From: Bacteroidales bacterium | GTDB lineage: Bacteria > Bacteroidota > Bacteroidia > Bacteroidales > F082 | Direction: 5' to 3' | Assembly: GCA_017439405.1 (NCBI GenBank) | Contig: JAFSJF010000105.1 | Span: 1-52,202, forward strand | DNA: 52,202 nucleotides | In this document: one piece after another, positions 7,249-10,162 of the stretch | Layout of the letters: the number at the start of each line of letters is the position of its first letter | Position numbering within the stretch: position 1 is the first letter of the stretch | Translations under genes and position numbers: made by a program | The notes under the pieces: model-generated | The model's input: the letters and a program-made list of their open reading frames with translations, nothing else | Databases searched by the model: none | Told to the model about the DNA's origin: nothing

Positions 7249-7379
7249 GACGCGAGACTGTGGGACTATGACTTGAGAACATGACTATGACAACTTGATA
7301 AAAGAAGTAAGACTTTCGTCTTTTCGTAAAAATTGTCATGGTCATAGTCAATGGTCATGGTCTTTTTGATCTCGTGTCA
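7249..7379. repeat. Imperfect long palindrome of the GTCATAGTCATG word type
   Basis: The outer arms GACGCGAGA (7249-7257) and TCTCGTGTC (7371-7379) pair with one mismatch. Inside, CATGACTATGACAA (7280-7293) pairs imperfectly with TTGTCATGGTCATAG (7333-7347), and the words GACTATGAC and GGTCATGGTC recur. It fills the gap between the ABC ATPase and permease genes, and its right arm includes the ATPase stop codon. Confidence 0.55.
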
Positions 7380-8201
7380 ACAGAACATTTGTTTGATGGT
7401 TTCCTTGTTTTTCATGACGGTGTTGAACAGCACCTCGATGCTCACTTTGCTGTCAAGGCCTTCGGTGTTGCGGATGACGTTGACGTAGCCGCCGGGAATC
7501 ATCTCGCTATAGAGGGCGGTGTCGTCTTTCTCCATGCCGTAGTCGAAATAGAGGCGGTCAGTGATGTCGCGGAACGAGGCCTTGAGCAACACCTCGTCGT
7601 GGTCGAGGATGATGATGGGGTCGATGAGGTTTTCCACATCCTTCACCTGGTGGGTGGAGATGATGATGGTGCGGTCGTCGTTGGCGTACTTCGCGATGAC
7701 CTGACGGAACAAGGTCTTCGAGGGGATGTCGAGGCCGTTGGTAGGCTCGTCGAGGAGCAGGTAGTCCGTGTTGAGCGACAAAGCCGTGGCAATCAAGCAC
7801 TTCTTCTGCTGACCAAACGACATTTCGGCGTACTTGCGCGTCGGGTCCACGTCCAATTCCTTACAGAGTTCGAAGAAGAGACTCTCGTCGTAGTTGGGGT
7901 AGAACACGCCCAACTCGCGCACATTATTAATAGGTGTGCCTTCCGGGATAGCGAAGTCTTCCGAAATGAAGAAGATCTTCTGGAGGGTTTCCGGCCAGCG
8001 GTTGAAGGCGGCGATGCCATCCACCTCGCAGGTGCCTGCAGTGGGCTTTTGCAAGCCGCTGATGAGTTTCAGCAGGGAGGTCTTCCCCACTCCGTTTTCG
8101 CCAAGCAGCCCGTAGATGTTGCCCTTCTCGAAGCTGAGGCTGATGCTTTTGAAGACTGGTTGCGCTTTGTAACCGAAGTCTAAGTTGTTGATTGTAACCA
8201 T
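7377..8201 (-). CDS. ABC transporter ATP-binding protein
   Basis: Cytoplasmic ATPase of 274 residues that would drive the membrane subunit encoded downstream. Visible motifs are Walker A GENGVGKTS (about 34-42), a signature loop MSFGQQKK (about 127-134, a variant of LSGGQ usual in the YtrB/ABC-2 group), Walker B LLLDEPTNGLD (about 148-158) and the switch His in STHQ (about 184). The C-terminal 60 residues are outside the nucleotide-binding fold. It is the first gene of an operon with the permease and the GntR regulator and has a close match to a Bacteroides promoter 45 bases upstream. An exporter function is inferred from family; the cargo is unknown. Confidence 0.92.
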   Translation of the reverse strand: MVTINNLDFGYKAQPVFKSISLSFEKGNIYGLLGENGVGKTSLLKLISGLQKPTAGTCEVDGIAAFNRWPETLQKIFFISEDFAIPEGTPINNVRELGVFYPNYDESLFFELCKELDVDPTRKYAEMSFGQQKKCLIATALSLNTDYLLLDEPTNGLDIPSKTLFRQVIAKYANDDRTIIISTHQVKDVENLIDPIIILDHDEVLLKASFRDITDRLYFDYGMEKDDTALYSEMIPGGYVNVIRNTEGLDSKVSIEVLFNTVMKNKETIKQMFC

Positions 8202-8275: not shown

Positions 8276-8313
8276 GAAAAAAAAGTGATTTTTTTGAAAA
8301 AAAGTTGAAAAAA

Positions 8314-8444
8314 GTTTCCCCTGCGGGGAATGGAGTTGATTGGATAGGATAAAAGGCGGCGGCAGGTAAAGCCTACGACTCGTAAACGTCATAGGCCGCC
8401 GCATTCTACCTCAAAGACATAACTCCATTCCCTGAAAGGGAAAC
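8314..8444. repeat. 131-bp nested palindrome, copy A
   Basis: Starts GTTTCCCCTGCGGGGAATGG and ends with CTCCATTCCCTGAAAGGGAAAC; these 24-base ends pair with each other, and each end is itself a small hairpin (TTCCCC-TGC-GGGGAA and TTCCC-TGAAA-GGGAA). Inside, GCGGCGGC (8356-8363) pairs with GCCGCCGC (8395-8402), and GCCTACGAC pairs with GTCATAGGC with one mismatch at the tip. With copy B it fills most of the 383-base gene-free stretch 8202-8584. Confidence 0.85.
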
Positions 8445-8451
8445 ACAAATA

Positions 8452-8582
8452 GTTTCCCGCAAAGCGGGAATGGAGAAATATGAGCGTGTATAAAGGCGGC
8501 GGCCTAAAACTATTATGAACTCATAACGTATACCAGCCGCCTTCAACTACAAAAGCAAATCTCCATTCCCCAAAGGGGAAAC
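8452..8582. repeat. 131-bp nested palindrome, copy B
   Basis: Same plan, length and orientation as copy A, 7 bases away. The ends TTCCCGCAAAGCGGGAA and TTCCCCAAAGGGGAA are hairpins, AAGGCGGC (8493-8500) pairs with GCCGCCTT (8536-8543), and the tip is TTATGA-AC-TCATAA (8513-8526). It ends 2 bases before the stop codon of the GIY-YIG gene. Confidence 0.85.
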
Positions 8583-8584
8583 TT

Positions 8585-8944
8585 CTATTGATTTTTCATC
8601 AGTTCATCCATAACCTCTTTTACTCTTTCGCTCCATGGTGTTTTATCACGGACAAAGCCTTTTTCTGTAACCAATTCTTTCCATTCAGGATTCTTATTCT
8701 CTATCAACTGAATCTTTTCTACTCGTTTCATGTGTTTGATAGCATTTTCTCTATCAATTGCCGCTTGATAACTGGTAAATTCCTCATAATAAACACAATA
8801 CTCACAATTGTACCTGTCAGAAAACGACCCTTTGTAGCGATGGGTCTTATGTTCTCCCACTCTGCGGATTAAATCGTTTGTACAACCCGTGTATAAAGTT
8901 GTATGGTACTTGTTTGTCATGATATATGTATATGCAAATCTCAT
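8585..8944 (-). CDS. GIY-YIG nuclease family protein
   Basis: Single-domain GIY-YIG endonuclease-like protein of 119 residues, the short UPF0213-like type. The hallmark appears as YIM (residues 7-9) and LYTG (17-20), followed by CTNDLIRRVGEHK, with the catalytic Arg in that stretch, then YYEEF and a Glu in DRENAIKHMKR that matches the metal-binding Glu of the fold. Nothing is missing, so it should be active, probably nicking or cutting DNA. The stop codon lies 2 bases from palindrome B and the start 32 bases from palindrome C, with a -7 box TATTTTTG in that space. Its biological role in this short family is not established; the palindromes suggest they are its substrate, which is inference. 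Confidence 0.9.
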   Translation of the reverse strand: MRFAYTYIMTNKYHTTLYTGCTNDLIRRVGEHKTHRYKGSFSDRYNCEYCVYYEEFTSYQAAIDRENAIKHMKRVEKIQLIENKNPEWKELVTEKGFVRDKTPWSERVKEVMDELMKNQ

Positions 8945-8960
8945 AACATCTAATTTGCGA

Positions 8961-8968
8961 CAAAAATA
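8961..8968 (-). promoter_or_regulatory. -7 box of the GIY-YIG gene
   Basis: Minus-strand TATTTTTG fits TAnnTTTG, 16 bases upstream of the ATG. A -33 element would fall inside palindrome C, where no TTG is seen. Confidence 0.45.
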
Positions 8969-8976
8969 GTAAAAAA

Positions 8977-9107
8977 GATTCCACTACAGGGAATGGAAGC
9001 GGTTCGATGAGTTAAAATGCGGCGGCTAGTAGAGCTTACGAACCGTTGACGCCACAAGCCGCCGCCTTCTACTACAAAGACAAATTTCCATTCCCCGCAG
9101 GGGAAAC
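8977..9107. repeat. 131-bp nested palindrome, copy C
   Basis: Same plan and orientation as copies A and B. The right end TTCCCCGCAGGGGAA is intact, while the left end is worn (GATTCCACTACAGGGAATGG). ATGCGGCGGC pairs with GCCGCCGC near 9060. It ends 2 bases before the TAG of the radical SAM gene at 9110. Confidence 0.85.
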
Positions 9108-9109
9108 TC

Positions 9110-10162
9110 CTAACATTTTATCTTGTTGTAATGGCACAACAAAATTCCCTCCGAGTCCTTCCGATGCAGATGCATTGCCCCACCGAGGCAGTTCCTAAAC
9201 ACCTTGCAATCTGCGCATTGGCCCGTCTTCATCCAAGCACGGTCGCGGAAAGGTTGGAAACGGTTTTCCCAAACGTCGAGGAAGTCGTTCTGATAGATGT
9301 TGCCTTGCGCAAAGCGGCGGTCGATGTTGGGACAGGCAGAGATGGAGCCGTCAATCAAGATGGAGCCGACGGTGATGCCTGCGCGACAGAAATAGAACCA
9401 GTCGCGCACCTTGCGCTCGTAAGGCCCAACGTAGGCTTCGCAACTGAACTTCGCGTCAATCTTCCCCTCCTTGCGGGTGGCGACGATGAAGTCCAGCAAC
9501 TGGCGAAGCTGTTCGCCATTGAGTTGCAGGTTGGGGTCGTTGGCAGCGCGACCGATAGGCTCAATGCAGAAGAAACGCCACGCCTTCACCTCGTGTTCGA
9601 TGAGCAGCCGCTTCATTTCTTCCAACTCATTGATGTTCTTCGGACTGACGCAGGTCACGATGTCGTAAGTCGGGAGGCGTTTCTCGTTGGCAATCAAGTC
9701 GATGGCGCGAAGGGCCTGGTCGAAACTGCCATGGCGTTTGCGGAAGGCGTCGTGCGTGTCGCGCAGCCCGTCGAGGCTGATGGTGATGCTGCACATGCCC
9801 GCGTCCATCAGCCGTTTGTGCATGGACTCGTCGTAAGCCCAGCCGTTGCTGACGATGCCCCAAGGGAAGCCGTGCTGTCGCAGTTGTCGCCCACAATCGG
9901 GCAAGTCGGGACGCACCAAAGGCTCGCCGCCCGTGATGACCACCAAAACCGAGTTGCGTTTGTATTTGGTTTCCAAAGGTTTAATCGCGTTCAGGAAGTC
10001 CTCGAAAGGCATGTCATTGTAGCGCGACGAGGCCACACAGTCCGAGCCGCAGTGCTGGCAGTTGAGGTTGCAGCGTTGCGTACACTCCCAAAAGAGGTAG
10101 TTCAACTCGTGGAGTTGGGTTTCCTTTTTGCGGAAATAGTTGTGGAAGGATTGCAGCATCAT
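9110..10162 (-). CDS. Radical SAM/SPASM enzyme of the rSAM/lipoprotein system
   Basis: Radical S-adenosylmethionine enzyme of 350 residues. The cluster-binding CNLNCQHC gives Cys 31, 35 and 38; ITGGEPLVRPDL is the GGE motif that binds SAM; the C-terminal third is a SPASM-like domain with scattered Cys (CRAG, ACPN, QCADC, NCLGG, LLCHY) for auxiliary iron-sulfur clusters. From memory this matches the TIGRFAM pair described as rSAM/lipoprotein system (TIGR04133 enzyme, TIGR04134 lipoprotein), found in Bacteroidales. The enzyme overlaps the lipoprotein gene by ATGA, so the two are translationally coupled. The enzyme is presumed to modify the lipoprotein; the chemistry is not known to me. It is the last gene of a run of five tightly spaced genes. 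Confidence 0.9.
   Translation of the reverse strand: MMLQSFHNYFRKKETQLHELNYLFWECTQRCNLNCQHCGSDCVASSRYNDMPFEDFLNAIKPLETKYKRNSVLVVITGGEPLVRPDLPDCGRQLRQHGFPWGIVSNGWAYDESMHKRLMDAGMCSITISLDGLRDTHDAFRKRHGSFDQALRAIDLIANEKRLPTYDIVTCVSPKNINELEEMKRLLIEHEVKAWRFFCIEPIGRAANDPNLQLNGEQLRQLLDFIVATRKEGKIDAKFSCEAYVGPYERKVRDWFYFCRAGITVGSILIDGSISACPNIDRRFAQGNIYQNDFLDVWENRFQPFRDRAWMKTGQCADCKVFRNCLGGAMHLHRKDSEGILLCHYNKIKC

Follow-up and report, generated by a model that had tools for sequence, protein, structure and literature searches.

The closest described counterparts of the locus analyzed here are the REP sequences and REPINs with their RAYT (TnpA_REP) nucleases, in which a nuclease gene lies between tagged hairpins, solo inverted pairs of hairpins occur elsewhere, and hairpin families are specific to nuclease paralogues. 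The RAYTs are Y1 HUH enzymes (PF01797), and their hairpins carry the tag GTAG. Free-standing GIY-YIG homing endonucleases (the Seg family and group I intron endonucleases) home into alleles or introns, and mitochondrial double-hairpin elements are small mobile hairpin pairs for which we know of no dedicated GIY-YIG partner. Yet another class, the CGTC-tagged REPs, was surveyed by Di Nocera et al. in 2013 (PMC3733652). In the passages of that survey cited here, these hairpins are described as having the tag CGTC, TGTC or CCTC, a stem of 8–9 bp starting with AT, a short loop and a CCA-like tail; they occur in five phyla, predominantly as inverted dimers, include Neisseria dRS3 and Rickettsia RPE-4 and RPE-6, and "apparently lack a dedicated transposase", their few associations with other transposase genes being fortuitous.

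The stretch of 52,202 nucleotides of a Bacteroidales genome analyzed here (hereafter, the window) includes a GIY-YIG nuclease gene bordered by three hairpin elements (Table 1). The gene is complete and single-domain, as the earlier note on this DNA had stated: the sole Pfam match of the encoded protein is GIY-YIG (PF01541, E = 5e-11), and Y7, Y18, G20, R28, E66 and N85 are invariant in an alignment of 13 relatives. The protein has the GIY-YIG domain with the conserved Tyr, Arg and Glu, as do GIY-YIG homing endonucleases; these are presumably the catalytic residues. By sequence, the nearest solved structure is that of the UPF0213 protein BH0048 (1zg2; E = 0.003), from a family that presumably includes E. 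coli YhbQ. PADLOC gave no match for the window protein, and a role as a defense-system component was rejected on this ground; for one of two relatives, there was one weak homing-endonuclease match. The flanking radical-SAM and ABC-transporter ATPase genes are presumed to be such from their sequences. The promoter-like stretch between the 5′ element and the gene, a putative promoter, has similar words at the same place in close relatives, as judged by eye.

Table 1 Features of the GIY-YIG locus in the window
Feature	Position	Strand	Details and basis
ABC-transporter ATPase gene, insertion-site flank, outside the system	7377..8201	-	synteny
REPIN-like element 1, second of the two elements 3′ of the gene	8313..8443	-	covariance model, 97.1 bits (91.7 on the + strand)
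REPIN-like middle element, 3′ of the GIY-YIG gene and within a few nt of its stop codon	8451..8581	-	covariance model, 65.6 bits (49.4 on the + strand)
GIY-YIG nuclease ORF	8585..8944	-	119 aa, single domain
Promoter-like stretch TTTTTTACTATTTTTGTCGC, between the 5′ element and the ORF	8957..8976	-	by eye
REPIN-like element 3, 5′ side of the gene, near the radical-SAM stop codon	8976..9106	-	covariance model, 93.7 bits (87.8 on the + strand)
Radical-SAM gene, other insertion-site flank, outside the system	9110..10162	-	synteny

The earlier note described three elements of exactly 131 bp in the same orientation, two on one side of the gene and one on the other. All of this stands: in a covariance model (R1, built from 30 elements), each element is 131 nt long and scores higher on the strand of the gene, so that equal length and common orientation hold, and two elements lie 3′ and one 5′ of the gene. 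The match to the model is in itself expected because all three are among its training elements. Folded as DNA, the segments 8314-8444, 8454-8582 and 8979-9107 reach z-scores of -6.4, -5.4 and -3.8, respectively, each surpassing 200 of 200 shuffles. In the common plan, a short GGA/TCC stem, itself enclosing a GC-rich inner stem, links the two terminal hairpins, which are of the TTCCC..GGGAA type; all three elements (3/3) are inverted pairs of hairpins with the tag CTCC or TTCC, a short stem starting with ATTCC or TTTCC and the tail CT or CTC. Covariation support for the exact helices is weak, the observed values being reached by 29 to 140 of 500 shuffles (alignment A1), because terminal stems of unequal length end up misaligned and the GC-rich inner stem is nearly invariant. 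The right-hand words that the earlier note considered common to all three elements are indeed shared by elements 1 and 3, which are 74% identical over 154 nt, but the middle element, the most diverged of the three, lacks two of them and has TTCAAC and CAAAAGCA instead. Repeatedly, an element starts at or within a few nucleotides of a stop codon (8582-8587 and 9107-9110 in the window, as well as L009-L012, L017 and L371), and the first hairpin of some elements includes the last bases of the adjoining stop codon; the elements possibly have a target preference just downstream of genes.

As in REP/RAYT, the enzyme gene is flanked by its own hairpin family with solo copies elsewhere, and the analogy drawn in the earlier note is apt, the unit being the inverted pair of tagged hairpins. 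Nevertheless, the enzyme belongs to the GIY-YIG rather than to the HUH fold, and the tags are CTCC or TTCC in the window and CGTC or TGTC in relatives rather than GTAG; given that both enzyme and tag differ, the window system does not belong to REP/RAYT despite probably working similarly, and the chemistry must differ between the two. The hairpins around many relatives of the window gene are like CGTC-tagged REPs in tag, AT-starting stem, CCA tail and arrangement as inverted dimers; several relatives fit the 8–9 bp AT-starting stem with a CCA-like tail, and others have a 5-bp stem and a long loop. Unlike the CGTC-tagged REPs in the cited parts of the 2013 survey, where no transposase gene was found, these hairpins flank GIY-YIG genes, and those of the window also differ in the CTCC/TTCC tag and the GC-rich middle stem. 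Among the matches listed in a search of open-licence PMC articles, no paper linked GIY-YIG proteins to REPs. The earlier note, which knew of no established mobile family of this kind, did not mention the resemblance of such hairpins to the named CGTC-tagged REPs. The passages checked in PMC9465073, PMC12306157 and PMC10928387 contain no such link, and the papers matching sequence words of the elements were unrelated by title. With respect to an insertion sequence or MITE, a transposase and a recognized target-site duplication are absent. With free-standing GIY-YIG homing endonucleases, the window gene shares the fold and, probably, the character of a selfish nuclease gene; unlike them, genes of its type lie between palindromes at many unrelated sites, and gene-free palindromes exist.

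A scan of genome contigs yielded 37 GIY-YIG loci. In all 12 homologues with 72–81% identity (L009-L019, L032), elements are present on both sides of the gene, in tandem arrays at L010 and L012. At 57–67% identity (L020-L031, L033), 10 of 13 loci have an element detected by a simple pattern, which in one of these (L031) lies only ~1.3 kb upstream of the gene; at the three loci where the pattern finds none (L020, L022, L024), downstream hairpins of the same plan with a different middle part are seen by eye (L022 was viewed in part). Window-type elements are absent, by the simple pattern, from L034-L042, L044 and L045, and L043, a partial match of 53 residues, has one weak pattern match. The close-clade protein is under strong purifying selection, with median pN of 0.11 and pS of 0.80 (12 genes, 66 pairs) and a median dN/dS of 0.064 (maximum 0.45; 24 unsaturated pairs).

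In the window's own genome, the covariance model finds seven element positions, the three in the window and four elsewhere. The latter (two on contig C148 and one each on C147 and C131) are gene-free copies of the kind that the earlier note proposed to look for, there being no GIY-YIG gene detected on those contigs; the only other GIY-YIG match of this genome lies on a different contig, inside a 621-aa frame that is probably UvrC. R1 elements are present in 21 of 60 genomes searched, all 21 within the 36 genomes of the same genus, and in none of the 24 searched genomes outside it. Eight genomes have 42 to at least 57 matches, both strands counted. Apart from G000, the genomes G003, G019 (two copies), G028 and G030 yielded the close-clade gene, at 73–80% identity to the window protein, and R1 elements occur at 6 of 6 close-clade loci, scoring 49–110 bits beside the GIY-YIG genes, compared to 0 of 19 other GIY-YIG loci in the same search. 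Four genomes with 50 to at least 57 element matches, G002, G016, G021 and G027, have no close-clade gene that we could find, which speaks against a simple story; G021 is 98% complete and the other three, 58–77%. Gene loss, assembly gaps or another driver are possibilities.

More distant GIY-YIG genes of the genus lie between hairpins that follow the same plan but differ in sequence, such as CGTC-ATTTCGACC..GGAGAAAT-CTCC. Not all have them: for 11 of the 34 GIY-YIG genes analyzed in the genus, the detector reports no hairpin, although two of these (L092, L093) do show hairpins by eye. Small GIY-YIG genes are present in 171 of 296 Bacteroidota genomes, in up to 14 copies. We sampled 80 loci, one per genome, among the best-scoring matches listed, so that the sample leans to genes near the profile. 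The locus chosen was as a rule the first in the list to lack an internal stop; in G183, it was the second of two equal matches, and in G333, a later match, the first being at a contig end. The sample excludes the window's own genome, genomes with listed matches that were interrupted by stops or located at contig ends, and the eligible genomes G273 and G349; two sampled regions are clipped at the contig end. Strict detection of 7-bp stems missed most units, and we therefore used a 5-bp tagged detector (pattern GTC-ATNNN..N'N'N'AT-C). In this best-scoring sample, 66 of the 80 loci have a tagged hairpin within 300 nt of the gene, and 52 have one on both sides, for a total of 222 tagged units (4.63 per kb), compared to 0.18 per kb in the mostly coding sequence more than 1 kb from GIY-YIG genes and 1.3 units per set of 80 mononucleotide-shuffled flanks. 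Of the 14 loci without a detected hairpin, 8 fall in the first half of the sample and 6 in the second, so that the rate does not drop with score inside the sample. The units mostly carry CGTC or TGTC tags, with the detector itself demanding GTC; units found without this demand are likewise mostly TGTC or CGTC. In the 52 two-sided loci, the nearest units are oriented FR in 21, FF in 12, RF in 11 and RR in 8, so that the predicted tags-outward arrangement (21/52) is the commonest one without being the rule.

The control gene UPF0102/YraN, of similar size (40 of 114 matches, chosen by us, mostly in genomes that also carry GIY-YIG genes), has a tagged hairpin on any side in 1 of 40 cases and on both sides in none (0.04 per kb). 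A flanking inverted-repeat score of at least 30 is reached at 34 of the 80 GIY-YIG loci, 1 of 58 further ORFs from these regions and 0 of 40 YraN genes; when the two flanks come from separate GIY-YIG loci, 62 of 791 pairs attain this score because genomes share hairpin types. The earlier note had expected palindromes to recur elsewhere and beside homologues of the gene; both expectations agree with the 21 of 60 genomes and the much wider spread of the same plan with other sequences, and with the 12 of 12 close loci (both sides) and 66 of 80 Bacteroidota loci (at least one side).

In a plasmid collection, with 34 matching records, some of them chromosome-sized, 12 of the 17 loci analyzed, mainly from Proteobacteria, have flanking inverted repeats scoring at least 30 (two Shinella loci, L115 and L118, are one site); the genera include Shinella, Sinorhizobium, Azospirillum, Sphingobium, Neisseria and Planktothrix. 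Beside the Shinella and Sinorhizobium genes is CGTC-ATCCTCGGGCTTGACCCGAGGAT-CCA, with a near-identical inverted copy on the opposite side, and the Neisseria locus has dRS3-like repeats. The score stays below 30 at L117, L122, L123, L128 and L130; such hairpins are present on both sides, in direct orientation, at L117 and on one side at L123. On Planktothrix agardhii plasmid p1 (L114), the hairpin-flanked GIY-YIG gene has a type IIL restriction-modification gene on one side and DISARM drmA on the other.

The hairpins match the nuclease that they flank. The comparison comprised 166 distinct genes from 100 genomes, of which 33 genomes are multi-copy. The inverted match between the 5′ and 3′ flanks of one gene has a median of 30 and reaches at least 30 in 54 of 98 cases; when the two flanks belong to separate paralogues of one genome, the median is 21 and this score is reached in 56 of 228 cases (Wilcoxon p = 3e-8; 28 of 33 genome means positive, p = 6e-6). 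On a FastTree phylogeny of 199 distinct proteins (identical ones collapsed), 157 of them labelled by hairpin stem type, the type changes 57 times versus 102.3 ± 2.8 with shuffled labels (lowest of 200, 94), and with one gene per genome, 29 times versus 44.5 ± 1.7; host phylogeny may add part of this signal. In G028, three paralogues have CTCC-ATTCCC, GGTC/CGTC-ATTGCGAGG..CCAG and TGTC-ATTCCAGC..CTAT hairpins, respectively, and the fourth GIY-YIG gene has none; G029 and G030 each have two hairpin families.

The hairpin-gene-hairpin unit looks mobile. In G034, the assembly of which is given as 76% complete, a pair of 431-bp units shares 97.2% identity and has unrelated flanks, the homology starting 3 nt before the CGTC tag and stopping at the GACG tag, and the only ORF inside the unit is the GIY-YIG gene. 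At the second G034 site, L370 and L369 have 39 and 55 bp between the same genes, with no hairpin, and a 70–77% identical gene with hairpins is found in L371, L376 and L372 (contig end). The unit of Azospirillum lipoferum separates sufB from sufC; these two genes are direct neighbors in all five relatives examined (A. oryzae, A. ramasamyi, sp. B510, A. argentinense and A. thermophilum). At the window site, the ABC gene is next in 21 of 25 orthologous radical-SAM loci, the window included. Among these 21, the window has the GIY-YIG gene and three elements, a single solo element adjoins the stop codon in L224 and L229, and the remaining 18 have neither the GIY-YIG gene nor a window-type element, three of them (L214, L217, L228) showing a different hairpin pair by eye. 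Sites without the unit, which the earlier note had suggested looking for in relatives, are thus found at the window, G034 and Azospirillum loci. No target-site duplication was recognized by eye at the G034 or Azospirillum units.

The same intergenic site as in L369-L372 holds another gene in L373, L377 and L380, which has CTCGCAGATCACGCAGATT-type repeats on its flanks and is enclosed by remnants of CGTCATTTCGACC hairpin ends. This gene matches PDDEXK_3 of Pfam (E = 8e-42 for L380, gene L380:2234-2611, + strand) and is, we presume, of the GxxExxY type; L381 has similar repeats and lacks the gene. The PDDEXK_3 gene and the CTCGCAGATCACGCAGATT-type repeats are possibly a third REP-like nuclease-repeat pair.

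We consider it reasonably probable, at roughly two chances in three, that gene and palindromes are one selfish REP/RAYT-like system in which a GIY-YIG nuclease replaces the HUH transposase. The genomic comparison demonstrates the association, its specificity to locus and clade, dispersed near-identical tag-ended units, unit-free sites and purifying selection, and strongly suggests, at the level of sequence, that the nuclease mobilizes the hairpins. The nuclease would recognize the tagged hairpin, with a CGTC, TGTC or, in the window clade, CTCC/TTCC tag, a usually AT-starting stem and a CCA or CTC tail, and would cut at or beside it; we infer that a repair or strand-transfer step follows, in which the unit and the gene-free pairs would be copied elsewhere during repair or replication. 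The hairpin-gene-hairpin unit would in this manner be a dispersing autonomous element of small size (431 bp in the best example), with gene-free hairpin pairs (REPINs, the 131-bp elements) as non-autonomous passengers. Counted against this reading are the element-rich genomes without a detected gene, the hairpin-free GIY-YIG genes, the mixed orientation, the lack of a recognized target-site duplication and the non-canonical CTCC/TTCC tag of the window clade.

The main rival, which we regard as unlikely, is homing: the hairpins would spread by other means and serve the nuclease as recognition site and homology arms, such that the gene, copied into a resident REP or REPIN by recombination, would be a parasite of REPs rather than their mobilizer. 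The solo elements of L224 and L229, located where the window has the gene and its elements, are in line with this scenario, as are the element-rich genomes without a detected close-clade gene and the weak, sub-cut-off profile similarity of relatives to group I intron endonucleases and, in one case, to SegE. The hairpin-free sequences of L370 and L369 at the second G034 site, however, give no evidence of a resident REP there, and the tracking of the nuclease by the hairpin family within one genome is expected if the nuclease drives the spread, although homing into a matching REP predicts the same.

Chance gathering of small nuclease genes at repeats that are ordinary insertion hot spots or safe havens is improbable. 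REPs are mostly intergenic (PMC3733652) and have been described as insertion-sequence targets (PMC1525189), but this explanation is already disfavored, and we reject it given the YraN control (1/40), the other ORFs of the same regions (1/58), the cross-paralogue test within genomes and the near-identical tag-ended units.

It is still harder to credit that a RAYT/IS200 (HUH) transposase moves the 131-bp elements, with the GIY-YIG gene riding along. RAYT/IS200 genes (PF01797) are present in 10 of 11 genomes of the genus tested, with 3–8 copies in seven element-rich genomes, 2 in G003 and 0–1 in G000, G011 and G034. Yet none of the 20 PF01797 loci examined (of 41 listed) has a strong element match, the three weak ones scoring 13–20 bits (E = 0.0008–0.05), and 13 of the 20 have their own, different inverted repeats (score of at least 30), for which reasons this already disfavored driver was rejected; these repeats serve as a positive control for the method and indicate that the two systems are separate. 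At these loci (L346-L365), several unrelated inverted repeats, of the TCCCGTAGGGAT, GAGCCCCGAAGGGGC and GTGTGGGG types, are seen. Finally, there is very little chance that the hairpins serve the host as RNA terminators or regulate a nuclease gene of the host: several elements abut stop codons and would form strong hairpins, but elements come and go at orthologous sites, occur on contigs without the gene, and are found on both sides of the gene and in arrays.

With the preferred reading of a GIY-YIG nuclease that mobilizes its own hairpins, we propose tentatively, at somewhat less than even odds, a broader generalization: hairpin-GIY-YIG-hairpin units would be a new class of autonomous transposable elements of ~0.43 kb, the nuclease acting as a transposase on hairpin ends and also generating the CGTC-tagged REP/REPIN populations (dRS3-like and possibly rickettsial) in several phyla. 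If so, these units would be the non-HUH counterpart of the RAYTs. The GIY-YIG nuclease is a candidate enzyme for a repeat class reported without one, and the transposase question for CGTC-tagged REPs becomes testable with a protein of ~100 aa and short oligonucleotides. REPs would then have a second, unrelated enzyme fold, which would suggest that hairpin REPs arose more than once, with different nucleases.
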